The translations under genes and the position numbers were made by a program. Below, in pieces: positions 8,546 to 19,957 of a DNA stretch of 64,000 nucleotides. The notes below the pieces were generated by a model. The model searched no databases. It saw nothing but the letters and a program-made list of their open reading frames with translations, and had not been told where the DNA came from. How positions within the stretch are numbered: position 1 is the stretch's first letter; every line of letters starts with the position of its first letter. This stretch comes from Nitrospira sp. Lineage in GTDB: Bacteria > Nitrospirota > Nitrospiria > Nitrospirales > Nitrospiraceae. Where the stretch lies: NCBI GenBank assembly GCA_029194535.1, contig JARFXR010000002.1, positions 434,001 through 498,000 of the forward strand. Reading direction: 5' to 3'.

Positions 8546-8679
8546 CGTGGCCATTCCCCGCGCATCACAAAACCGCCCACGACTATAGACAGCGGACCTC
8601 AAACCCGTCAATCACGACCCTCTTGACCCAGCCTCATGATTTCGTTTCTAATGTTTGTTCCCTCGGAGGTATATCTGTT

Positions 8680-9117
8680 ATGGTGTCAGCAAAGAACGCG
8701 AAAGAAATGGAGACGCTCAAGGAGCATCTGGCGAGACACCAGTTGAAGTTTACCCGCCAGCGAGAGCTCATTCTGAGTGCCTTCTTGCGACAAGAGCACA
8801 TTACGGCTGAGGCGATGTACCATCAACTGGCAAAGATGGATCCGCATCTCGGGTTGGCTACCATCTACCGGACCCTAAACCTCTTTTGCGATGCCGGACT
8901 TGCGCAGGCCCGACACTTCGGTTCTCAAACTCAATACGACAACATTTCGCATAAGGGACATCACGACCATCTCATTTGCACTGGGTGCGGAAAAATCATC
9001 GAGTTCGAGAACTGTGAAATAGAGCGACTCCAGGAAGAGGTCGCGGTGAAGAACGGGTTTGCGATTCAGACCCACCGGCTTGAGCTCTATGGGCTCTGCT
9101 CCCGCTGCCGCCACTAA
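8680..9117 (+). CDS. Fur-family metal-dependent transcriptional regulator
   Basis: This is a 145-residue Fur-superfamily repressor. An N-terminal winged helix (KFTRQRELILSAFLRQEHIT, then the recognition helix GLATIYRTLNLF) precedes a dimerization domain. That domain has the metal-binding HKGHHDHLICTGCGKIIEF and two structural-zinc pairs, Cys100/Cys103 and Cys140/Cys143. The start is the ATG with a strong CGGAGGT site nine bases upstream; an upstream TTG frame lacks one. Fur, PerR and Zur cannot be separated from motifs alone. The location just before exbBD and near a Fur-box-like site and bacterioferritins fits iron or peroxide sensing. Confidence 0.93.
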   Translation: MVSAKNAKEMETLKEHLARHQLKFTRQRELILSAFLRQEHITAEAMYHQLAKMDPHLGLATIYRTLNLFCDAGLAQARHFGSQTQYDNISHKGHHDHLICTGCGKIIEFENCEIERLQEEVAVKNGFAIQTHRLELYGLCSRCRH

Positions 9118-9318: not shown

Positions 9319-9744
9319 ATGGACCTGTTAAAGCACGCAGTGGACTATGGAGTGATCGGACTGCTCTTTTTGCTCAGCATCTGGTGTGTCGCGGTAGCTG
9401 TTGAGCGCTGGCTCTTCTATCGTCGGGTCGACCTCAAGCAATATCCTAATCAGCAAGTGTTCGAAATCGCCCTGACCCGGCGGCTGGTCATTATTGGGAC
9501 TGTCGCATCAAATGCTCCTTACATCGGTCTGCTCGGAACGGTCCTTGGCATCATGCTCACATTTCACACAATGGGAACCACCGGTCAGATGGCGGTCAAT
9601 ACCATCATGATCGGGTTGAGTCTCGCCCTCAAAGCCACGGCCGTAGGGCTGCTGGTGGCCATTCCGTGCGTGGTCATGAATAACATCTTGCGTCGGCGGG
9701 TCTCGGAACTCATCACCCTGTACAAGGTGCAGCATGGAACGTGA
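9319..9744 (+). CDS. exbB: ExbB/TolQ/MotA-family proton channel (short form)
   Basis: This 141-residue inner-membrane protein belongs to the MotA/TolQ/ExbB proton-channel family, compact type. TM1 is near residues 10-32, and the conserved TM2-TM3 block reads IGLLGTVLGIMLTF ... ALKATAVGLLVAIPCVVMNNILRRR. The ATAxGLxVAIP motif is the family signature. It lacks the long cytoplasmic loop of E. coli ExbB, which is usual for the short type. It overlaps exbD by 11 bases. The complex normally powers TonB or Tol; neither TonB nor a TonB-dependent receptor is encoded in this window, so the partner is elsewhere or atypical. Confidence 0.88.
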   Translation: MDLLKHAVDYGVIGLLFLLSIWCVAVAVERWLFYRRVDLKQYPNQQVFEIALTRRLVIIGTVASNAPYIGLLGTVLGIMLTFHTMGTTGQMAVNTIMIGLSLALKATAVGLLVAIPCVVMNNILRRRVSELITLYKVQHGT

Positions 9745-10108
9745 GATCGATCAGATCAACGTGATCCCTCTGGTGGACGTAATGCTGGTCCTCCTTGTCA
9801 TCGTCATGACAACGGCCACGTTCATCACGACTGGGCATATCCCAGTGAACCTCGCAAAGGCCAAAGAGGCAGGAGACCGGAAGGATGTGCCGCTTGTGAT
9901 CACGCTCTCCTCCGATGGCAGTTTGTTCCTCAACGACCAACCGGTGTCGCAGGAGGGATTGAAGGTCGAATTGATCAGCCATTCCAGGGAATCGCTGGTC
10001 CTGGTTCGAGCGGACAGGGTAACCGTGCTTGAGCGCTTCGTCAACGTAGTCGATGACGTCCGCGGCCTCGGCTTCCACCAGGTCAGTCTCGAGGTGCTAA
10101 GATCATAG
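9734..10108 (+). CDS. exbD: ExbD/TolR-family energy-transducing protein
   Basis: This 124-residue protein has a short cytoplasmic N-terminus with INVIPLVDVMLVLLVIVMTT, the single TM helix of ExbD/TolR. The proton-relay aspartate lies in VDVMLVL. A small periplasmic domain follows (PVNLAKAKE ... VTVLERFVNVVDDVRGLGFHQVSLEV), as in all family members. It partners with the overlapping exbB gene. Downstream genes are on the other strand, so exbBD is a two-gene unit. Confidence 0.9.
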   Translation: MEREIDQINVIPLVDVMLVLLVIVMTTATFITTGHIPVNLAKAKEAGDRKDVPLVITLSSDGSLFLNDQPVSQEGLKVELISHSRESLVLVRADRVTVLERFVNVVDDVRGLGFHQVSLEVLRS

Positions 10109-10183
10109 TAACCGCAATTTCAGCCGCCCGATAGGCCGGTCACGCGCAGGACTTCAAACGTCCCGCTGGCTCTACCGTTTCAT

Positions 10184-10498
10184 CTAGGCTTCACACTTAT
10201 CCTGTTGCCAATCCCGAAGGATCTCATCCTTGTCAAACGTCAAAATGTATACATGACAGTAGGTGGACTTGGCATATCCTGCGAAGCTACCGGTCCCGCT
10301 GCCACGGTCAAAATAGGTCCATACCATTCCTCCACCATCGATCTTCCGAGCCTTGTGAGGGGCCCCGTAACGACTGGCGACCTGCTCGGCAGTGGAAGTG
10401 TTCACACCATTCTTGAAGTACTGAGATTCGATCTCCGAACACGCCACCGACATTCCTAACAGCACGGCTGCCTGGAGCACTCGCATGAGTTTGCTCAT
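10184..10498 (-). CDS. Small predicted lipoprotein, unknown function
   Basis: This is a 104-residue protein with an N-terminal hydrophobic stretch ending in MSVAC (lipobox, Cys20). The mature part contains STAEQVASRYGAPHKARKIDGG and WTYFDRGSG. The 'VxxxxGxP ... WxY' layout recalls SmpA/BamE-like lipoproteins and related stand-alone outer membrane lipoproteins, though similarity is weak. Its start overlaps the end of apbE by four bases, so the two are cotranscribed and it may serve the same envelope pathway. Two extra cysteines near the C-terminus (YCHVY, DKCEA) could form a disulfide. Confidence 0.7.
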   Translation of the reverse strand: MSKLMRVLQAAVLLGMSVACSEIESQYFKNGVNTSTAEQVASRYGAPHKARKIDGGGMVWTYFDRGSGTGSFAGYAKSTYCHVYILTFDKDEILRDWQQDKCEA

Positions 10499-11544
10499 TG
10501 AAGATGTCCTTCCTGATCAGATTCAACCGGAAAACGAATGCGATGTCTCAACCCTGATGAGATATGAACATTGCCCGCATGGTCCACGATCACGGCCTCC
10601 ACATCGGGAAGGCGTTCAACCAAATCCATCCCACGCTCAGGCCCCATGACAAATACACCGGTATCAAGGCCATCGGCCCATACGCCGTCCCTTGCAATGA
10701 CGGAAACGCTTTGACAAGCACGGGCAGGCTGCAGTGTGGACGGATCCAGGATGTGATGATAACGAACTCCGTCACGGTCAAAAAACTTCTCATAATCGCC
10801 TGCTGTTGAAATTGCCTCGTCCTCTAAATCGATAAAAGCCAGAACTGCCCCTTCTTTGCGAGGATGCTGGATGCCAACCGTAAATTTCCTCTTACCTGGT
10901 AACTGACCGAATGCTTTAACGTCCCCAGAGAGCGCCACTACTCCGGCATTGGCGCCCGCCGTCCTCATCGCAGTCACTGCCTGATCTGCCGCATAACCCT
11001 TTCCAATACCTCCGACGTCGATCCGCATCCCAAGCGTTTCGAGGAAAATCGTGCCGGATTGTACATCAAGATGCACGCCACTGAGCATCGTCAATGCCTT
11101 GAGGGCCTGAAGGTCCTCGGGCGACGGAATTTCTTGTCGCTCAGTGACACGCCAAGCATCGACAGCGGGGCCTATAGCAATGTTGAATCCGCCATTGGTC
11201 AGTTTCGCCACCTGTAATGATCGCTCGACGACCGCAATAGTCTCTGGACTCACGCGGACCGGCTCCCTTCCCGCAGCAGCATTGACTGAAGAGAGTTCAC
11301 TCGTGCCAATCCAGGTACTCAGTAGCCGCTCAAGGCGCTTGATTTCCGAGAATCCGGCATCGATCGCGTTATTCGCCGCCTCCTCCGACGGCGCTAGTGC
11401 CGTGATTGTCACAAGCGTCCCCATGTGCAACTGGGTTCGCTTTTTGAGCACCGGTGTAGACGGGGATAGCAACTGAGTACATCCGGCAAGCATCGTCACA
11501 ATAAGAAGCAGATCCCGTAGCCGGTTCGTCAGTTCGCATGCCAT
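10495..11544 (-). CDS. apbE: FAD:protein FMN transferase (ApbE), lipoprotein
   Basis: This 349-residue ApbE-family enzyme transfers FMN from FAD to a Ser/Thr of extracytoplasmic proteins. The signal peptide ends in MLAGC (lipobox, Cys22). Recognisable segments are MGTLVTITALAPSEEAANNAID, IDVGGIGKGYAADQAV, the substrate-binding HHILDPSTLQPA and the acidic metal site region WADGLDTGVFVMG (family usual: A-D-x-L-x-T). The promoter side carries a 19-base Fur-box-like palindrome. A protein with the ApbE target motif SGATMS is encoded 3 kb away at 14010-14690, which I take as its likely substrate. Followed by an overlapping lipoprotein gene. Confidence 0.93.
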   Translation of the reverse strand: MACELTNRLRDLLLIVTMLAGCTQLLSPSTPVLKKRTQLHMGTLVTITALAPSEEAANNAIDAGFSEIKRLERLLSTWIGTSELSSVNAAAGREPVRVSPETIAVVERSLQVAKLTNGGFNIAIGPAVDAWRVTERQEIPSPEDLQALKALTMLSGVHLDVQSGTIFLETLGMRIDVGGIGKGYAADQAVTAMRTAGANAGVVALSGDVKAFGQLPGKRKFTVGIQHPRKEGAVLAFIDLEDEAISTAGDYEKFFDRDGVRYHHILDPSTLQPARACQSVSVIARDGVWADGLDTGVFVMGPERGMDLVERLPDVEAVIVDHAGNVHISSGLRHRIRFPVESDQEGHLQ

Positions 11545-11663
11545 ATCTAGAGGTTTGTAGCACAGTTTCCGTGAGAATTCGCAGGGGAGTACCGAAGAGA
11601 CTCCATCTCATTTTTCTCAAGATTTCCGTTCGTACCACTTGACAATTGGGAGCGATTCGGGAC

Positions 11664-11682
11664 ATTAATAACCGTTCTCAAT
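11664..11682. promoter_or_regulatory. Fur-box-like palindrome between apbE and the zinc-ribbon gene
   Basis: The 19 bases ATTAATAACCGTTCTCAAT read on the other strand as ATTGAGAAC-G-GTTATTAAT, a 9-1-9 inverted repeat with seven of nine arm positions matched. Size and the TGAGAA half fit the Fur operator pattern. It sits about 120 bases upstream of apbE and 25 upstream of the divergent small gene, so it could control either. Binding is inference. Confidence 0.5.
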
Positions 11683-11706
11683 TTCATTTAAAGCCTTCTA
11701 GCATCA

Positions 11707-11889
11707 ATGATTGTCACAGGCATGCCGCCCCAGGAGCGTTTTCAGAACGACGAAACGCGTTGCGAATGCGGCCAGCTCATCGCCAAGGTAAAGGACGCCG
11801 GGCTTGAACTCAAATGCAAACGATGCAAGCGCATCGTCATTATTCCCTTCGCTGCGGTCGAAGGCTGGACGGGGCAATCGTCCAGATGA
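11707..11889 (+). CDS. Com-like zinc-ribbon small protein
   Basis: This is a 60-residue protein with two CxxC/CxC-type pairs (RCECGQLIAK and LKCKRCKRIV) spaced as in the Com family of zinc fingers, first known from phage Mu Com, a translational activator. Stand-alone Com-like ribbons are common in bacteria and their function is mostly unknown. The start could be 11707 or the ATG at 11722; neither has a strong ribosome site. It lies immediately downstream of the Fur-box-like palindrome and before the first porin. Confidence 0.65.
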   Translation: MIVTGMPPQERFQNDETRCECGQLIAKVKDAGLELKCKRCKRIVIIPFAAVEGWTGQSSR

Positions 11890-11944
11890 AAGGAGGATTC
11901 GTATCGTCAGAACCTACGGGTAGCTCTTAGGCGCCAGAAACAGG

Positions 11945-11978
11945 ACCAGAGACCTTTGCGTCCCGAGTCAGACCACCA
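11945..11978 (+). repeat. Leader element shared with the second porin (copy 1)
   Basis: A stretch in the 5' untranslated region of the first porin gene, about 69 bases before its start, contains accagagacc and gcgtcccgagtca followed by accacca. The same blocks in the same order precede the second porin (15398-15432). The shared blocks are nearly identical although the coding DNA of the two genes has drifted, which suggests a retained regulatory role. Confidence 0.6.
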
Positions 11979-12013
11979 TTGCTTCAAACCATCGTTTCTC
12001 AAGGAGGTTCGCA

Positions 12014-13501
12014 ATGCGGATCGGGGCAATCCTTGGGGCTCTGGTTATCGCCAGCTTACCGGTCATGCCGGTATGGGCGGAAAACATGACTCCGGAGGAA
12101 ATTCAGAAGTTGGTAGACGAGGCCGTCGAAAAGAGAATGAAAGAATACGAGCGGCGGGAACCTTCTGCGGAGAGATCCATGGAGCAGAAGCAAGCACAGC
12201 CCGGAGGCCCGCAGTATCCGGTTGCAACGGGTCCCATGTCTGACATTAAGGTTGAACGAAAGGGCGAAGAAAGCGTGCCGCTGTCGTTCGGATCCACCGG
12301 GTCAGGAAGGCTCGTTTATGCGAAACCCTTCGTCAGCGCGCCCAAGGCCACCATCGGTGGGTACGCAGATTTCAAGTTCGGATCTCTGACCGGCCCGACG
12401 CTCGACAATCTCAGCCGACAGTCGTTCAACCAGGAACGAATGGTGCCCTTCCTGTACGCCGATGTAACGGACCGAGTGAAGTTCATGACTGAAATTGAGT
12501 TTGAACGCGGCGGGACCAATTCTCCGGGGGCGAACGGCACCAATGCCGGCTCCATGCAACTGGAATTCATGCAGCTCGACTATCTCGTCACTGAGTCCTT
12601 CAATCTCCGCGGCGGTATCATCTTGATGCCGGTGGGCAAGTTCAACCTCCTGCACGATTCACCGCTCAACGACCTTCCGGATCGGCCGATGGTCGATCGC
12701 CTTGTCATTCCCAGCACCTGGTTCGAGACGGGCGCCGGTTTCTATGGCACCTTGTATCCCAGCTCCCTTTCGAAGGTGGACTACGAATTCTACGCCGTCA
12801 ATGGCATGGGCTGTAACGCACAGGGCAGCGCGATCACAGATGTGAATGGAACTCGCAACTGCCGAGGCAGTGTCTCTCGTGATCTGAACGATAACAAGGG
12901 TGTGGTCGGACGTCTCGCCTTCAGCCCGATGCTCGGCATTGAAATCGCGGGATCGTCGTTCTACGGCCTGTACAACAACCGGAATGCCGGGGGTGTCAAC
13001 AATCAGAAAGATTACATCGGAATTTATGCGATCGACTGGACGCTTCAACGCGGGCCCTTCGAGGTAATCGGTGAGGCGGCCTGGTCCCGGATCGAAGGGA
13101 ACCAAGGAGTAACATTAACCACCCAAGGGCCCTCAGGCATGTTTGGATATTATATCCAAGGCAACTACCACTTCATGCCGGAATTTTTGAAGAGGATGGC
13201 TCCCAGCCACTTCACCGACAACTCGACATTCACTGCCGTCGTCCGATGGGAGACTGTAGATACCGATACATCTCAAAACTCGCGCTTTGCCAACGGTCAG
13301 GTCAGCAATCAGCGAGATCTGCAACGATTGACACTAGGAGTGAATTTCAGACCGATCGAGGACACGGTGTTTAAGTTCAGCTACATGTTCAATACACAGA
13401 GAAACACGTCCTTGAACAACTTCGTCAACAATCCCGGGAACAATCAGGTGACCCGCATCGACGGGAACGGATTCTTATTCATGGCAGCCACGTATTTCTA
13501 G
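12014..13501 (+). CDS. Outer membrane porin (paralogue 1)
   Basis: This 495-residue beta-barrel protein has a clear signal peptide (residues 1-22, cleavage after VWA). A short charged coiled coil (EEIQKLVDEAVEKRMKEYER) and a Pro/Gly linker follow, then a barrel of amphipathic strands ending in Phe (TYF), the outer-membrane assembly signature. Barrel motifs such as GKFNLLHDSPLNDLPDRP and GAGFYGTLYP resemble phosphate-selective porin O/P-like and related putative porins. A strong AAGGAGG site precedes the ATG. It is paralogous to the protein at 15458-16969, with an almost invariant neck segment. Solute is unknown. Confidence 0.85.
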   Translation: MRIGAILGALVIASLPVMPVWAENMTPEEIQKLVDEAVEKRMKEYERREPSAERSMEQKQAQPGGPQYPVATGPMSDIKVERKGEESVPLSFGSTGSGRLVYAKPFVSAPKATIGGYADFKFGSLTGPTLDNLSRQSFNQERMVPFLYADVTDRVKFMTEIEFERGGTNSPGANGTNAGSMQLEFMQLDYLVTESFNLRGGIILMPVGKFNLLHDSPLNDLPDRPMVDRLVIPSTWFETGAGFYGTLYPSSLSKVDYEFYAVNGMGCNAQGSAITDVNGTRNCRGSVSRDLNDNKGVVGRLAFSPMLGIEIAGSSFYGLYNNRNAGGVNNQKDYIGIYAIDWTLQRGPFEVIGEAAWSRIEGNQGVTLTTQGPSGMFGYYIQGNYHFMPEFLKRMAPSHFTDNSTFTAVVRWETVDTDTSQNSRFANGQVSNQRDLQRLTLGVNFRPIEDTVFKFSYMFNTQRNTSLNNFVNNPGNNQVTRIDGNGFLFMAATYF

Positions 13502-13512
13502 AGACATGACAA

Positions 13513-13542
13513 GCCGGCTGCCTGCTTAGCCTGGCAGCCGGC
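13513..13542 (+). terminator. GC-rich hairpin after porin 1
   Basis: GCCGGCTGCC and GGCAGCCGGC form a perfect 10-base stem with a 10-base loop 11 bases past the porin stop. There is no U-run, so it may be an mRNA-stabilising or attenuating hairpin rather than a full terminator. Confidence 0.5.
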
Positions 13543-13560
13543 CGATCCGAAGATGGCATC

Positions 13561-14025
13561 ATGACTATTGGGCACAGTGTGACAGGTCTCCTAGGTGTTG
13601 GACTTCTCCTATGGCAAGTCGGGTGCTCGTCACTGACGGGTCTGCAGGAACGTTATGTCGTTTGCCCCTACGACAAGGTCTGGGATGCCGCCATCGAAAG
13701 CGTCAAGGATAGGTCGATCAAAGTCCAAGAGAAGGAGAAGGGTCTCATCGAAACCGCGTGGTTGGAGCTCCCGATGCCCGGTCGAAAGTATGGGGCATTC
13801 CAACGCGACATGGAGAGCAAGGACCGCTCCCGTATCATCATGAATGTCAAGCGACTCAGTGACGTCACGAATGTCAACTTTATTGAGGAACGTCAACGGT
13901 GGGCATTTCGCGGAGGCTCAAGGCTTTTCGGCTGGGCTGATACGGACCCTTCCCGAGAGGTGATGACCGATGTCGAACACCGGCTTGACGGCAAGCTCAA
14001 GGAGCAAGGATGCTCGCTCGCCTAA
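13561..14025 (+). CDS. Predicted outer membrane lipoprotein, unknown function
   Basis: This is a 154-residue protein with a signal peptide ending in WQVGC (lipobox, Cys22). The mature part starts YVVCPYDKVWDAAIESVKDRSIKVQEKEKGLIETAW, a pattern seen in small BamC/NlpB-like lipoprotein domains in which a 'conversion' of a variable to DxxxGxIxTxW recurs. Its end overlaps the FMN-binding protein gene by 16 bases, so it is coupled to it and may be part of the same envelope complex. No catalytic motif is visible. Confidence 0.75.
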   Translation: MTIGHSVTGLLGVGLLLWQVGCSSLTGLQERYVVCPYDKVWDAAIESVKDRSIKVQEKEKGLIETAWLELPMPGRKYGAFQRDMESKDRSRIIMNVKRLSDVTNVNFIEERQRWAFRGGSRLFGWADTDPSREVMTDVEHRLDGKLKEQGCSLA

Positions 14026-14690
14026 TTGCTTCCATCATCTGCTTTGCAGGTTTCTCGCTGTGGACGACAGCGGCGTTCAGCGGCGACCGCATTTGGGACA
14101 ACGAGTTGCGCCGGTTCGTCACCGAGCAAGACTTCAAGTACGAAGAATTCATGACGGAAGATGAAGCGTTGAAGCACGCGCTTCCCAAGTCGAAACGCAT
14201 CAGGCGAGAACTCATCCGTCTGACGCAGGACAAGAAAGAGTTAATCGAGCAACGCATCGGATGGAAGTTTCCGGAGGAATCATTCGAGGTCTATGTCGGC
14301 GAGACAGACGATAAGATCGATGGGTACGCCATGATTCATCATACCATCGGGAAGTACAAACCCATGACGTATATGGTCGGTGTGGACGCAGAAGGGACCT
14401 GCCAGGATGTCGAACTGTTGGTCTTTCGCGACGCCAAAGGCAGCGAAGTTCGCACGAAACGTTTTAATTCTCAATATGAAGGCAAGAACGTGTCCGATCC
14501 GATTCGAATCAACAAAGATATCATCAATATCTCCGGCGCAACCATGTCCGTACGCTCCATGAGCGCAGGTGTGAAGCGTGTGTTGGTGTTATTGGATGAA
14601 TTCTATTTGAAGCCCGCAGGTCTCGGCAGCGACGCCATCGACGCGCGCAGGGCCGAGAGAGGGTTTTTCAGCCTATTGTTCGGCAAGTGA
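14010..14690 (+). CDS. Secreted FMN-binding (flavinylated) protein
   Basis: This 226-residue protein has a signal peptide (1-24) and a C-terminal FMN_bind domain of the NqrC/RnfG type. The ApbE target motif [S/T]GA[S/T]x[S/T] is present as SGATMS at residues 175-180, with Thr178 as the expected site of phosphoester-linked FMN. It is followed by VRSMSAGVKRVLVLLDEF, as in the family. The upstream region (KIDGYAMIHHTIGKYKPMTYMVGVD) matches the flavin-pocket strands. It has no membrane helix after the signal peptide, so it should be a periplasmic electron carrier. Coupled to the lipoprotein upstream and to the membrane protein 22 bases downstream. Confidence 0.9.
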   Translation: MLARLIASIICFAGFSLWTTAAFSGDRIWDNELRRFVTEQDFKYEEFMTEDEALKHALPKSKRIRRELIRLTQDKKELIEQRIGWKFPEESFEVYVGETDDKIDGYAMIHHTIGKYKPMTYMVGVDAEGTCQDVELLVFRDAKGSEVRTKRFNSQYEGKNVSDPIRINKDIINISGATMSVRSMSAGVKRVLVLLDEFYLKPAGLGSDAIDARRAERGFFSLLFGK

Positions 14691-14712
14691 CCCCCCGAAA
14701 CTGTCTGACGTC

Positions 14713-15231
14713 ATGCGGAACTTCAATACGCGTTTCCGTCTCCGAGACTCGGACCGCCATATCCGATTGCTCTATACGCAGTTTCTGCTCCTGATGCTGG
14801 TTGGATTCGCCTTTTCTTTTTTTTGGGCCCATGACATGACCGGATTATCTCCGCAGGGAATCGCCGATCATTACCGAGGGTCCGATGCGACGTTCGGCGA
14901 ACCGATGTCCTTTCGGGAACTGGCCGAGGTTACCCACTTTCACCTGTTCACGATGCCCGTCGTATTCATGATTCTCGCCCACGTGCTCTATCTTACCGAA
15001 GCCAGTCACCTGATGAAAGTGATGATGACCTGGCTGTCTTTCGGAGGCGTCGGGTTGGATTTGGTGTCACCGTGGCTGATCAGCTATGTGTCCCCATTTT
15101 TTGTGCTCACGATGCTGATGGGAGACACGCTGATGGTCGTCAGTTTCCTCGTTATGATGGCAATCCCCATCTATGAAATGTGGGTCCTGAGACAGCCGCT
15201 GGTGGCGGGGAAAGGACAAGGTGGACCGTGA
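14713..15231 (+). CDS. Four-helix membrane protein with conserved-looking histidines
   Basis: This is a 172-residue integral membrane protein with about four helices (near 20-38, 74-95, 105-130, 132-157). Helix 2 begins THFHLFTMPVVFMILAH, placing His75, His77 and His90 on one helix. The 13-residue His77-His90 spacing is like that of heme ligands in b-type cytochromes, though a partner helix with matching histidines is not obvious (His40 is a candidate). I do not recognise the family. The position after the FMN-binding protein gene suggests that it is the membrane electron donor to that flavin. The start ATG is 22 bases after the upstream stop. Confidence 0.75.
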   Translation: MRNFNTRFRLRDSDRHIRLLYTQFLLLMLVGFAFSFFWAHDMTGLSPQGIADHYRGSDATFGEPMSFRELAEVTHFHLFTMPVVFMILAHVLYLTEASHLMKVMMTWLSFGGVGLDLVSPWLISYVSPFFVLTMLMGDTLMVVSFLVMMAIPIYEMWVLRQPLVAGKGQGGP

Positions 15232-15295
15232 TCTGAGATCGACGGTGCACTCAGACAAGGTGTAATAAGAAGGAGCGGCCAGAGGTTTTTCGCCC

Positions 15296-15338
15296 AGAGC
15301 CCAGCATCACCTTCGGTGATCGTGGGCTCTTTTTTTTG
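15296..15338 (+). terminator. Intrinsic terminator after the FMN-protein operon
   Basis: AGAGCCCA pairs with TGGGCTCT, with an inner ATCACC/GGTGAT stem, followed by a run of eight T. This ends the transcript carrying lipoprotein, FMN protein and membrane protein, so the second porin has its own promoter. Confidence 0.9.
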
Positions 15339-15397
15339 GCCGTGCGTCATCCTGACCGGAGGAATGGTCCACAAGGAGCATGATTGAGCAAGCAGAG

Positions 15398-15432
15398 ACC
15401 AGAGACCCCCGCGTCCCGAGTCAATCACCACC
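15398..15432 (+). repeat. Leader element shared with the first porin (copy 2)
   Basis: accagagacc, then gcgtcccgagtca and caccacca, sit about 60 bases before the second porin start and match the leader of the first porin (11945-11978). The blocks are non-coding in both places. Confidence 0.6.
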
Positions 15433-15457
15433 AATACATTTTTGGGGAGGGAAGCGT

Positions 15458-16969
15458 ATGAAGATCGCAATAGGACTCGGGGCCCTGATCTCATTCATGC
15501 TCTGTCCTGGTCTGGAAGCATTCGCCCAGGATAAAGCGCTTGAGGAACGCCTCCAGCGCGTCGAAGAGGAGCTTCGACAAAACCGAGAGACGCTGAAGCG
15601 CTACCAGGAACAGGAACGCAGGGAGGGGACAGCGGAACATCGGGAGTCTGCACCCCCGGGAGCGCAGTACCCCACGCCGGTGGGATCCATGTCCGATATC
15701 AAGGTTGAGCGACCGGGCGAAGAGAAAGTTCCCCTCTCCTTCGGCTCCACAGGGTCGGGTCGATTGGTGTACGCCAAGCCGTTCGTTTCCGCTCCGAAAG
15801 CCGTTGTCGGCGGCTATATGGACATTCAGTACCGAGCTCAGAGTCAAGCCAGCATTGAAAACGGGTACGGAGGGACGACAAATACTTTCGATCAGCAGCG
15901 GTTCGTGCCCTTTATCTACGCAGACATTACGGAGCATGTAAAGTTTGCCTCTGAAATTGAGATCGAACACGGCATCCGTGAGGATTCGACACAAGGGTTG
16001 GAAATTGGGCTGGAATTTGGTTTTATCGATTACCTCGTCAACGAACCCTTCAACATTCGCGCGGGCATCCTGTTGCTGCCTGTGGGAAAATTCAACCTTT
16101 TGCACGATTCTCCGCTCAATGATTTGACCGATCGGCCCTTAGTCGCTCGCTTCGTGATTCCTTCGACAATGTCTGAAACCGGTGCTGGTTTCTACGGAAC
16201 GTTCTATCCCGGAACAACCAGCAAGCTGGACTACGAATTGTATTTCACGACGGGCCCCTGTTCATATAACAGTGATGGAACTCCAAGAATCAATGAAGCG
16301 GATGGGACCAGGGGATCACGGCAAAGGAAATGTCCCTCGGATGATGGATTAGATATCAATAACGGTAAGTCCATCGTGGGACGTTTAGCTTTCAGCCCAA
16401 TCCTAGGAATCGAAGTCGGAGGATCAGGTTACTACGGCAATGGCGCGCCTAACGGCAACTACAATCCTACAAGCATTGTGGCAGTCGACTGGACATTTCA
16501 GCGCGGTCCGTTTGAATTGATCGGAGAAGCAGCCTGGGCCTACGCGAGGGGCAACTCTCGCGCGATTCAGACGAATACAATTGGATTCGCTCCCGGGTCC
16601 CTATTGACCGGAATTGAAGGCAATAGTGGTCCGGGCATTCCACCACAGCGCTCGAGCGGTTACTACATCCAGGGCAACTATCATTTTATGCCCTCGTTCC
16701 TGAGCAAGTGGTCGCCGAAGCGATTCGGCGAGGGATCAACCTTCACGGCCGTCCTCCGGTACGACAGGGTGAACACAAACCTGGATAACAGCAATGGGAC
16801 AGGCGGCTGGGGGAATTTGGAGCAGATTTCCGTTGGGCTTAACTATCGACCAGTGGAGGATGCGGCCTTCAAGATCAGCTATCAGTATCAGCCGATGGCC
16901 TTTAATCCCAACACCGAGCAGCGCATCCATGACCAAGCGTTGGTGATTTCAGCTGCGACTTACTTTTGA
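15458..16969 (+). CDS. Outer membrane porin (paralogue 2)
   Basis: This is a 503-residue barrel protein paralogous to the one at 12014-13501. It starts MKIAIGLGALISFML (signal peptide, cleavage near AFA), followed by a 40-residue coiled coil (LEERLQRVEEELRQNRETLK). The linker ending in SFGSTGSGRLVYAKPFVSA is almost identical to paralogue 1. The barrel contains GKFNLLHDSPLNDLTDRP and ends in ATYF. The start is the ATG with GGGGAGGG seven bases upstream; an open frame from 15380 has no such site. It differs from paralogue 1 mainly in surface-loop length (GIPPQRSSGYYIQG region). Confidence 0.86.
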   Translation: MKIAIGLGALISFMLCPGLEAFAQDKALEERLQRVEEELRQNRETLKRYQEQERREGTAEHRESAPPGAQYPTPVGSMSDIKVERPGEEKVPLSFGSTGSGRLVYAKPFVSAPKAVVGGYMDIQYRAQSQASIENGYGGTTNTFDQQRFVPFIYADITEHVKFASEIEIEHGIREDSTQGLEIGLEFGFIDYLVNEPFNIRAGILLLPVGKFNLLHDSPLNDLTDRPLVARFVIPSTMSETGAGFYGTFYPGTTSKLDYELYFTTGPCSYNSDGTPRINEADGTRGSRQRKCPSDDGLDINNGKSIVGRLAFSPILGIEVGGSGYYGNGAPNGNYNPTSIVAVDWTFQRGPFELIGEAAWAYARGNSRAIQTNTIGFAPGSLLTGIEGNSGPGIPPQRSSGYYIQGNYHFMPSFLSKWSPKRFGEGSTFTAVLRYDRVNTNLDNSNGTGGWGNLEQISVGLNYRPVEDAAFKISYQYQPMAFNPNTEQRIHDQALVISAATYF

Positions 16970-17140
16970 GAGGCATCATCCGAATCAATCTGACTCGGAC
17001 TTGACCGTGGAGCCGAAGCTGAAGCCCAGGTCGTGGAGGTCGAGAGCGTGCAACGATAACGCACCTCGTACGCAGCTCAATACGGCGCCGGACATCTGCC
17101 GACAGGATGTCGCGGCTGATATTTTCCTTGAGGATTTGCC

Positions 17141-18898
17141 ATGACTCATCAATCTGTCTCACGCTCTACTCCGTCCTGCCCTGTCGTGTCCATCGCGCTG
17201 GTCCTGCTCCTGGCGTTCTCAGGATGTTCCGGGGGAGGCAACACTTCCAGTGCGCCGGCGACCGTCCAAGAGACAGGAACACCGGGCGCCGAGCAGGCCG
17301 TCGGCGAACGGCTCTTCATGGAAACACGATTCGCCCAAGCCTTCAGCGCGTTCCTCGACAACGGAGGGAACGTCAACGACCCCAAGGTCAACGACCCGGT
17401 CGTGAGCACCGTGGAAACCATGAATCCCGGCGTCCCCATCAGTCCCGGGCCGTTCAAGGGTCTGTCGATGAATTGTCGCTCCTGTCACTTCGTCGATGAG
17501 GTGCTGACAGCCCCCGGGGGCGGGATGCGGACCTACGCGGACTTCGCGCGGCGCAGCCCTATTCCCGCCAGGGCCGACGGAAAGACGCTGACGCCGAGAA
17601 ATTCCCCACCTCTGGTCAATTCCGCACTGGATCGACCCGGAGGCGTCCTCTTCCATCTTGATACGGAATTTAACTCGATGGAGGATCTTGTCGCGGCTAC
17701 CTTCACCGGACGCAACTTTGGATGGTTGGCGGGAGAACGCGCGCAGGCTATCGCTCATGTCGCGCGCGTAGTTCGCGGTGATGACGGGTCATTCGACCCG
17801 TCGGATCAGTTCGTGGGCCTACCCTACCGAATCCTGTTCACCGGATCGAATCCTGCGATCCCTGATGAGTCACGTCTTCCTCCTGAATATCGGGTTCTCG
17901 TCGGATCGGGCACGGATCAGGAAATTTTCGATGCAGTAGTCAAAGTTGTCGCGGCTTATGTCAACGGCCTGCTCTTCTCTCAGACCGACGACGGCGGTGC
18001 CTTGATCCGTTCCCCCTTCGACGTGTTCCTGACCATCAATGGCCTGCCTCAGCAACCGGATCCAAACGAGACTCCCGTGGCGTACAGCAGGCGGTTACTG
18101 CAGCTGATACAGACCCGTGAATTAGCCGGCACGTTGCAATTCGTTACCTCCAATCCGAACCGAGCCGATGGTCAGTTCCAGTTCCACTCCCAACCCTTCG
18201 TCTTTGGCACCACCGAATTAGAAGGTCTGAAAATGTTTCTCGCAGAACCGACCGCCATTCCAGCTTCACCGGCTGAACTGACGGCGGGCAAGATCGGGAA
18301 CTGTCTCGTCTGCCACCCCGCTCCTAACTTTACGGATTTCAAACTGCACAATACCGGTACGACTCAAAGAGAATACGACCAGATTCATGGATCAGGGCAA
18401 TTCTCCGGGCTTGTCATCCCCAACCTCTCCACACGTGACGCCAATTACGACGCGTACCTTCCGGCGACGGAGAATCACCCGAATGCGTCGGAGCGTTTCC
18501 GGGAAATCCCCGTGCTGGCAAACCCGGCACTAACCGACCTCGGAGCGTGGAACGTGTTTGCGAATCCCGACATGCCGGCTCCACAGGCAAAGATCACCGC
18601 GATCCTTTGCGACAATCAGCAACCCTGTCCCGTCTCGAATGCCGTGCTCTTGGATCGAGCGCTTGCGCGATTCAAAACACCGGGGTTGCGGGACCTCGGA
18701 CACTCTGCCCCGTACATGCACACGGGGCAGTTTGATGGACTCAACAATGTGCTCCAATTCTATCGAGGCACATCCGATCAGGCACGAGCGGGGACCCTGC
18801 GGAACGGGGATAGTCAGCTCAAAGGTATCGCCCTGACGGCCGCCGATCTTCCGGCTGTGACCGCATTCCTGAATTCGTTGAACGAAGATTACCAGTAG
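17141..18898 (+). CDS. MauG/CcpA-like di-heme c lipoprotein
   Basis: This 585-residue protein belongs to the di-heme cytochrome c peroxidase/MauG superfamily. The signal peptide ends in FSGC (lipobox, Cys about 29). Two heme c sites are CRSCH (112-116) and CLVCH (about 388-392). The C-terminal PGLRDLGHSAPYMHTGQFDGL is the family hallmark seen around the high-spin heme. A GAGGA site precedes the start. It probably acts on peroxide or on a protein or organic substrate in the periplasm, using electrons from other carriers. It follows the second porin by 170 bases without a clear terminator. The exact reaction cannot be told from sequence. Confidence 0.88.
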   Translation: MTHQSVSRSTPSCPVVSIALVLLLAFSGCSGGGNTSSAPATVQETGTPGAEQAVGERLFMETRFAQAFSAFLDNGGNVNDPKVNDPVVSTVETMNPGVPISPGPFKGLSMNCRSCHFVDEVLTAPGGGMRTYADFARRSPIPARADGKTLTPRNSPPLVNSALDRPGGVLFHLDTEFNSMEDLVAATFTGRNFGWLAGERAQAIAHVARVVRGDDGSFDPSDQFVGLPYRILFTGSNPAIPDESRLPPEYRVLVGSGTDQEIFDAVVKVVAAYVNGLLFSQTDDGGALIRSPFDVFLTINGLPQQPDPNETPVAYSRRLLQLIQTRELAGTLQFVTSNPNRADGQFQFHSQPFVFGTTELEGLKMFLAEPTAIPASPAELTAGKIGNCLVCHPAPNFTDFKLHNTGTTQREYDQIHGSGQFSGLVIPNLSTRDANYDAYLPATENHPNASERFREIPVLANPALTDLGAWNVFANPDMPAPQAKITAILCDNQQPCPVSNAVLLDRALARFKTPGLRDLGHSAPYMHTGQFDGLNNVLQFYRGTSDQARAGTLRNGDSQLKGIALTAADLPAVTAFLNSLNEDYQ

Positions 18899-18942
18899 GA
18901 TGGAATCGGATGACTCCACTCGGATGTGAGCCCGAAGAGACA

Positions 18943-18978
18943 TAGGCGGGAGGCCGGCTGCTACCAGCCTCCCACCTA
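18943..18978. terminator. Hairpin between the di-heme gene and bacterioferritin genes
   Basis: TAGG-C-GGGAGG pairs with CCTCCC-A-CCTA around a loop that can form an inner GGCTG/CAGCC stem. It sits between convergent genes. There is no U-run on either strand, so this is probably a bidirectional, non-canonical terminator. Confidence 0.5.
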
Positions 18979-19001
18979 CTCAGCACGATGCGTCCTATCT
19001 A

Positions 19002-19472
19002 CTACTTCGTAATTTGCTCGGAAAGATATCGCTCAAGTCCAACCTGTCCAATCGTCTTCAGTTGGATCTCAAACCAGTCCACGTGTTCTTCCGAGTCTAT
19101 CACCATGTGCTCCAGCAGATGTCTGGTCGTATAGTCTCCAACCTGCGCAGCGTGGCTGATAGCTTTCCGCAGCAGTTCGACATCTTCCCGTTCGAACGCC
19201 AGATCGCTCTCGAACAGCGACTTAGCATCGGGCCCCGTGGCTACACCATCGAGCTTCGCCACCTCCGGCGTTCCCTGGAGATACAGAATGTGATCGATCA
19301 ACAACGAAGAATGTCCTACTTCTTCGTGCGCCAGATGGTCGAAATGGCCATGGAGACGTTCATATCCCCAGTGTTTGCACAGCGCGGCATGCAGCAGGTA
19401 TTGATGCACCGCCGTCAGCTCCGCTCGCAGTATATCGTTCAGATGCTGAATGACTCCTTCCTTGGCTTTCAT
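19002..19472 (-). CDS. bfr: Bacterioferritin subunit lacking the heme-ligand Met52
   Basis: This is a 156-residue bacterioferritin, an iron-storage subunit of 24-mer shells. Using E. coli Bfr numbering, the ferroxidase ligands Glu18, Glu51, His54, Glu94 and His130 are present. Glu127 is Ser, but Glu128 and Glu129 are adjacent. Position 52, the heme-b ligand Met, is Val (HEEVGHSS). It therefore looks like the catalytic, heme-free partner of the neighbouring subunit. It is the second gene of a two-gene unit, nine bases after the first, under the promoter at 20023-20051. Confidence 0.93.
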   Translation of the reverse strand: MKAKEGVIQHLNDILRAELTAVHQYLLHAALCKHWGYERLHGHFDHLAHEEVGHSSLLIDHILYLQGTPEVAKLDGVATGPDAKSLFESDLAFEREDVELLRKAISHAAQVGDYTTRHLLEHMVIDSEEHVDWFEIQLKTIGQVGLERYLSEQITK

Positions 19473-19480
19473 GGCTTCTC

Positions 19481-19957
19481 TCAGCTCTCTTTCTTGATTT
19501 GTTCAGCCAGATAGTTCTCAATGCCGATCTGCTCGATCGTTTCCATCTGCGTCTCAATCCAGTCGATATGGGCATCGACGTCTTTGGCCATATCTTCCAG
19601 CATGTGGCGAGTGGTGAAATCGGTCACCTTCGTGCAATGGACGACCCCCTCGCTTAACAGCGACAACATTTCTTGTTCCGCCTTGAGGTCGAGCTTGAAC
19701 TGCTCCGGCACCGTCTCGCCGACATGCACGGTGTTCATGCGTTGCACGTTCGGCACTCCCTCCAGGTACAAGATGTGTCCGATGAGTTCGTCCGCATCCT
19801 TCATTTCATCGATGCTCCGCTCTCGAACTTTATGATGCAACCGCTCATATCCCCAGTTCGCACACATTTTGGCGTGAACGAAGTACTGATTGATGGCAGT
19901 CAGATCAGCGGTGAGAATCTTGTTCAACAGATTGATCACCCCATCTTTTGCTTTCAT
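19481..19957 (-). CDS. bfr: Bacterioferritin subunit retaining Met52 but with degraded ferroxidase site
   Basis: This is a 158-residue bacterioferritin, the first gene of the pair. It keeps Met52 (SIDEMKDAD), so it can bind the inter-subunit heme, and Glu51, Glu94 and His130. Position 18 is Asp (ILTADLTA), 54 is Asp instead of His, and 127 is Val instead of Glu, so the di-iron centre is impaired. Together with the other gene this is the division of labour known from Neisseria BfrA/BfrB and Magnetospirillum. A strong AAGGGAGGGG ribosome site precedes the start. Confidence 0.93.
   Translation of the reverse strand: MKAKDGVINLLNKILTADLTAINQYFVHAKMCANWGYERLHHKVRERSIDEMKDADELIGHILYLEGVPNVQRMNTVHVGETVPEQFKLDLKAEQEMLSLLSEGVVHCTKVTDFTTRHMLEDMAKDVDAHIDWIETQMETIEQIGIENYLAEQIKKES

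Follow-up and report, generated by a model that had tools for sequence, protein, structure and literature searches.

A porin, flavoprotein and membrane protein cassette shared by Nitrospira and several other phyla, a candidate route of iron acquisition

In 64,000 nucleotides of a Nitrospira sp. genome (assembly GCA_029194535.1, contig JARFXR010000002.1, positions 434,001 to 498,000 of the forward strand), the stretch referred to below as the window, a porin, a secreted FMN_bind protein and a four-helix membrane protein of 172 amino acids (aa), named M172, lie beside a gene for ApbE, the transferase that attaches flavin mononucleotide (FMN) to proteins. Porin, FMN_bind protein and M172 are one cassette that is found across several phyla with Fur-box-like promoters and with varied iron importers alongside. 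The cassette is probably a widespread and undescribed route of electron transfer across the envelope that serves to acquire iron. The reading preferred here, with rather better than even confidence, is a periplasmic flavin ferrireductase module for iron acquisition, controlled by Fur and driven by quinol. The fuller proposal, in which the trio would be an undescribed cross-phylum iron-acquisition machine, with a promoter of the Fur-box kind and a tiny metal-binding regulator to itself, and a new four-helix family (E-x2-H-x-H and a third His) would supply the transmembrane element, redox or metal, is put forward tentatively and a little short of even odds.

Conservation and distribution of the cassette

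The conserved unit is smaller than the one drawn in the initial annotation and comprises ApbE, a 60-aa protein, the porin (porin A), the FMN_bind protein and M172. Inspection of 11-19 kb per locus showed one gene order, ApbE (minus strand), 60-aa gene, porin, (lipoprotein), FMN_bind and M172, in 20/20 relatives from two families of the order Nitrospirales, a match to the 154-aa lipoprotein being missing by tblastn in one of the 20. This lipoprotein was present at 29/29 loci of the order and at 0/65 loci elsewhere, and further loci of the order, two more families included, keep porin, lipoprotein, FMN_bind and M172 on the contig stretch available. M172 and FMN_bind co-occurred in the identical 46 of the 61 genomes of the order, and ApbE tracks their profile across the 61 with ten exceptions, mostly fragmented assemblies. 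Conservation of the gene set is far above chance, and the check that the initial annotation had asked for, conservation together in relatives, was run and came out positive for apbE with the FMN and 172-aa proteins.

MauG, the second porin (porin B), ExbBD and the ferritins are variable accessories, and the 104-aa lipoprotein likewise varied among relatives. A MauG-type gene adjoins the module at 13 of the 29 loci of the order, porin B is present in few relatives, ExbBD adjoin the module in Nitrospiraceae and are located elsewhere in sister families, and the ferritins, beside the module in most Nitrospiraceae, are mostly restricted to that family. The initial annotation had proposed an envelope flavin/heme module for iron; what stands of it, with strong support from comparative genomics, is an envelope flavin electron-transfer module tied to iron, from the fused ApbE-FMN_bind proteins, the shared phyletic profile, the Fur boxes in several phyla and the iron neighbours, and what had to be given up in view of this variation is a fixed chain with both porins, the di-heme enzyme and the ferritins.

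One genome of the same genus (G004, loci L217 and L218), which is 99% complete and in a single contig, has none of the three genes for M172, FMN_bind and ApbE, and at its topA locus a MauG remnant is all that is left. Its ExbBD orthologue (82%) lies within a FecI-FecR-ExbB-ExbD-TonB-receptor-PepSY_TM locus. This different reductive iron route in a genome without the module is counted in favour of the ferrireductase reading, and, as a single case, it suggests that either of the two, the module or the TonB/PepSY route, can take the place of the other.

Beyond the order, GTDB contigs were searched with the M172-family profile alone, lineage groups being those labelled in the records. The 80 loci obtained belong to Methylococcales, Desulfuromonadales, Binatota, Rokubacteria, Myxococcota, one Planctomycetota metagenome-assembled genome and other Nitrospirota. 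FMN_bind, or its fusion to ApbE, was directly upstream of M172 and on the same strand at 57 of the 62 loci outside Nitrospirota whose sequence was long enough, and a porin was near M172 at 42 of the 50 that were testable; Myxococcota were weakest (FMN_bind upstream at 22/27, porin nearby at 15/22). The combined table with loci from genome searches, in which a few duplicate genomes are included, gave 90/94 for FMN_bind and 84/94 for the porin. The porins are homologous across Nitrospirota and the other lineage groups. ApbE was not tallied in the 62-locus table because unfused FMN_bind proteins are matched by the fusion profile too; it is beside the porin-FMN_bind-M172 cassette or fused in many lineages. 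Sister families of the same class encode ApbE and FMN_bind as a single protein of ~500 aa, which has SGAT or SGAS and is followed directly by M172, and this fusion is a Rosetta-stone link between transferase and substrate. No M172 relatives were found among the plasmid records searched. In the Planctomycetota genome (L157) an ApbE-type gene is directly followed by the M172 relative and the upstream open reading frame is without an FMN_bind motif, which may reflect contamination or a reduced variant.

Fur-box-like promoters and iron-related neighbours

The Fur-box-like palindrome reported in the initial annotation was recovered (Table 1), and the block GATATTAATAATCGTTCTCAATTTC that contains this site, 11661-11679, is kept at a similar upstream distance in nearly all relatives. 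Outside Nitrospirota, 18 of the 42 module promoters matched the Fur consensus in at least 14 of 19 positions, against 0 of 133 control promoters drawn from the same loci (Fisher p 2e-13, a value that is generous because related genomes are not independent). Three of the 42 module promoters are from Rokubacteria/Binatota, the controls including Binatota and not Rokubacteria. Fur-box-like sites are found separately in Methylococcales, Desulfuromonadales, Binatota and Myxococcota, where they are located upstream of the porin. The conserved Fur-box-like operator at the promoter that marks membership of a Fur regulon is, at the level of sequence, present.

Fur itself adjoins the module in many Nitrospirota loci (L089-L098, L149-L153), in sister families and other classes. 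The iron transport genes beside the module differ between lineages: FTR1 with a cupredoxin in L092, L098 and the Rokubacteria locus L110, the last of which additionally carries TonB and a TonB receptor; FbpABC-type ABC genes in L090, L093, L096 and L149-L153; and FeoB in L101 and L132. A ferritin is beside the module in L094. In the nearest relative (L032) FbpBC are directly upstream of ExbB. The Fbp assignments were made by size, topology, solute-binding-protein homology and mutual similarity, with no substrate-specific model behind them.

M172, its partners and the window locus

The AlphaFold model of M172, of high confidence, contains four long helices and one short, and 96 homologues all have Glu72, His75, His77, His90 and Trp121. 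No Pfam family was found for M172 when these 96 were compared with Pfam, and the NapH, MsrQ, PepSY, DsbD and NQR/RNF families were absent among the listed matches at E <= 10. Neither PDB sequences nor PDB folds gave a clear relative; the best fold, cytochrome oxidase subunit I, had a Z of 7.7, which lies inside the noise range of helical bundles, and comparison with COX1 proteins by hhalign returned a probability of 1%. By the positive-inside rule helix 2 would have E72, H75 and H77 at its periplasmic end, with H90 close to its cytoplasmic one. His pairs 13 residues apart on one helix have the spacing typical for two hemes in b-type cytochromes. His77 and His90 are 13 residues apart on the same helix, and an M172 homodimer might hold b-type heme through them; M172 is a candidate quinol/heme electron conduit or iron site. 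In distant paralogues of ~240 aa a c-type heme (CxxCH) domain separates helix 1 from helix 2 and the membrane part is likewise without a Pfam family, and in some genomes they lie beside multiheme cytochromes.

Porin A was modelled (pLDDT 79, the predicted local distance difference test score) as a 16-stranded barrel with OprO (Foldseek E 1e-11, prob 1.00) and OprP (Z 27.6 over 320 residues) as its closest folds. These phosphate-selective porins share with porin A the 16-stranded barrel and are its best structural match, but identity is 14-15%, and E160, E164, E184, R199, H214 and K454 are invariant in 62 homologues. With acidic residues and His among these besides Arg and Lys, specificity for phosphate is not to be presumed.

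The 60-aa protein has the consensus R-C-x-C-G...ELKC[KR]RCKR. Its gene is upstream of the porin in 20/20 loci of the order and, outside the order, at about a dozen distinct loci, deltaproteobacterial included (17 matches with duplicates). Against Pfam nothing was above cut-off, and the protein was rejected as a true Mu Com since it fell below that cut-off. Its weak likeness to Com suggests a nucleic-acid-binding regulator, and it probably binds metal and regulates the operon.

As in other ApbE systems, ApbE is an exported protein with a lipobox, and its substrate scores above the FMN_bind cut-off and has the motif and a signal-peptide-like N terminus. Thr178, which the initial annotation had named as the ApbE target, does stand in the motif. 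The 3.98-Mb genome encodes one ApbE and one FMN_bind protein in total, both at this locus, and an [ST]GA[ST] motif is present in 79 of 90 FMN_bind homologues.

The window di-heme lipoprotein resembles MauG/MbnH di-heme enzymes in its two CxxCH motifs and in its similarity to MbnH-family models; unlike them it is under all curated cut-offs, the MbnH/MauG models matching over the C-terminal part only, and is a variable accessory of the module. Within Methylococcales a di-heme CCP/MauG gene is often inside the porin-FMN-M172 cluster (L115, L116, L119, L124, L126, L130, L134), and at 6 Methylococcales loci the adjoining di-heme gene is CCP_MauG, different from the Nitrospirales one. Methanotrophs also possess copper-repressible surface cytochromes. 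A Methylococcus transcriptome paper does not mention FMN.

Profile searches of the window proteins located every gene named in the initial annotation where it had been placed, including Fur upstream, ExbBD, ApbE, the di-heme lipoprotein and the ferritin pair, and the two porins on either side of the FMN protein are indeed paralogues; three small genes were added (Table 1). The FMN_bind gene and the 154-aa lipoprotein gene overlap by 16 bp. Porin B probably starts at 15458 and not at the upstream in-frame ATG at 15380.

Table 1. Features of the module locus in the window, and c-heme paralogues of M172 at other loci
Feature	Coordinates	Strand	Remarks
Fur-family regulator	8623..9117	+	PF01475 E 5.6e-34
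ExbB + ExbD energiser pair	9319..10108 (ExbB 9319-9744, ExbD 9734-10108)	+	TIGR02805 E 9e-48, PF02472 E 1.7e-22
104-aa lipoprotein	10184..10498	-	weak BamE similarity; confined to nearest relatives; absent from initial annotation
ApbE FAD:protein FMN transferase, lipoprotein type	10495..11544	-	PF02424 E 4.3e-80; lipobox LAGC
Fur-box-like operator GACATTAATAACCGTTCTC	11661..11679		divergent promoter, ApbE / 60-aa gene; 13/19 to consensus
60-aa CxCG-x13-CxxC mini-protein	11707..11889	+	core member; absent from initial annotation
Porin A, OprO/OprP-like, N-terminal helix	12014..13501	+	core member; 16 strands in model
154-aa lipoprotein	13561..14025	+	order-specific operon member; no Pfam; absent from initial annotation
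Secreted FMN_bind protein, S175-G-A-T178	14010..14690	+	core member; PF04205 E 5.5e-8
M172, four-helix predicted inner-membrane protein, 172 aa	14713..15231	+	core member; AlphaFold pLDDT 92
Porin B, paralogue of porin A	15458..16969	+	46% identity to porin A; Porin_O_P E 2e-4
Di-heme MauG/MbnH-like lipoprotein	17141..18898	+	two CxxCH; TIGR04039 E 2.7e-13
Two bacterioferritin/ferritin-fold (Bfr-type) genes	19002..19957	-	PF00210 E 9e-31 and 1e-32
c-heme M172 paralogues	L052 154-867; L053 1992-2753; L054 8006-8812; L105 7317-8048; L108 7448-8224

Proposed function, alternatives and relation to known systems

Five membrane classes of ApbE-dependent extracytosolic electron transfer have been described, namely NapH-like, MsrQ-like, PepSY-like, DsbD and NQR/RNF-like (Meheust et al. 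2021, PMC8238504). For some flavinylation systems that paper reported iron transporters as neighbours and control by Fur, and it proposed flavinylation-based iron-reduction systems; porins, ExbB and Nitrospira are not mentioned in its main text. Like these systems, the module has ApbE, a secreted FMN_bind substrate with SGAT and a membrane component. It differs in that M172 is in no Pfam family and in none of the five classes, in the OprO/P-type porin of the cassette and in the ApbE-substrate fusion of the sister families. From these comparisons the module is assigned to the ApbE/FMN_bind kind, its new elements being a membrane component outside the five described classes and a porin. The loci L092, L098 and L110, with FTR1 and cupredoxin beside FMN_bind, resemble the P19/FTR1 clusters that include FMN_bind (PMC8238504) and FtrABCD (PMC11966278). 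However, no P19 gene was recognised, most lineages are without FTR1, which was not found in the window cluster either, and the module has the 60-aa protein, the porin and M172 in addition. Siderophore-iron reductase loci of the PepSY_TM kind (FecIR-TonB-receptor-PepSY) also tie envelope reduction to iron uptake and have the same ExbBD type, whereas the window module is without a PepSY protein and a TonB receptor. No published description of the cassette was found in the literature searched, most subscription journals being outside the search.

In the proposed mechanism Fe(III) in small chelates would enter the periplasm through the 16-stranded porin. ApbE would load the secreted FMN_bind protein with FMN at Thr178, and M172 would take electrons out of the quinol pool and hand them to this flavin, plausibly via b-type heme in a homodimer. 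The flavoprotein would then reduce or release the iron, which would be imported by the permease of the lineage, FTR1, FbpABC, FeoB or, in the window genome, another one. The 60-aa protein would regulate the operon as a metal-binding factor, with MauG, the ferritins, ExbBD and the second porin as accessories.

Several observations weigh against this mechanism. The window module is without an iron permease and no close FbpB was found elsewhere in the genome, and many Methylococcales, Desulfuromonadales and Myxococcota loci have no adjoining iron transporter. The heme of M172 is guessed from three histidines, no b-heme family was matched, and the c-heme paralogues retain H75/H77 only, without the third His. 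Some Methylococcales and Binatota FMN proteins carry AGAT or MGST instead of the usual motif, and the Fur-box p value is, as said, generous. FTR1/cupredoxin systems import Fe(II) by oxidising it, and some versions of the module could pass electrons inward. Which way the electrons run is the step with the least certainty, given that Fe(II) is what FTR1 systems use and that di-heme peroxidases turn up repeatedly beside the module.

Two other functions were weighed. In one, which is judged unlikely, M172 would be a metal-binding permease or channel with Fe2+ on E72/H75/H77/H90, the FMN protein would keep iron reduced and the module would be a complete importer. In its favour are E-x2-H-x-H and H90, which are invariant and share a membrane helix, the many lineages, window included, with no iron permease beside the module and the failure of any cofactor-binding family to match M172. 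However, M172 has four helices only in its 172 residues, the c-heme paralogues, some beside multiheme cytochromes, point to electron transfer, and dedicated iron importers adjoin the module in several lineages. Slightly less likely still is an inward flow, from Fe(II) oxidation or a di-heme peroxidase/MauG to the flavoprotein, M172 and the quinone pool, serving iron detoxification or peroxide handling. Di-heme MauG/CCP-type genes do recur beside the trio in Nitrospirales and Methylococcales, the FTR1 and cupredoxin partners handle Fe(II), and ferritins adjoin the module in the window, but MauG is missing from most loci and Fur-box-type promoters suggest induction in iron starvation, not excess. 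That the locus holds an ordinary flavin system of the Rnf/Nqr/Nos type, or envelope genes that came together by chance, is highly improbable, since the FMN_bind protein, although RnfG-like (9eri_G, E 5e-7), scored 13.9-27.2 bits with RnfG models against cut-offs of 102-230 and does not qualify as RnfG/NqrC, no other Rnf/Nqr/Nos gene is at the locus, and synteny, with the cassette kept in several phyla, contradicts it.

Should the ferrireductase reading hold, it would bear on bacteria that are environmentally central and whose iron supply is in many cases poorly known. For Nitrospirales, methanotrophs, Desulfuromonadales and Myxococcota in which no siderophore locus is obvious, the cassette is a concrete, testable candidate for iron acquisition. 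With M172 it adds an undescribed family to the membrane partners of ApbE flavoproteins, it links a porin to a periplasmic flavin protein, and the family signatures given here ease annotation of the module.

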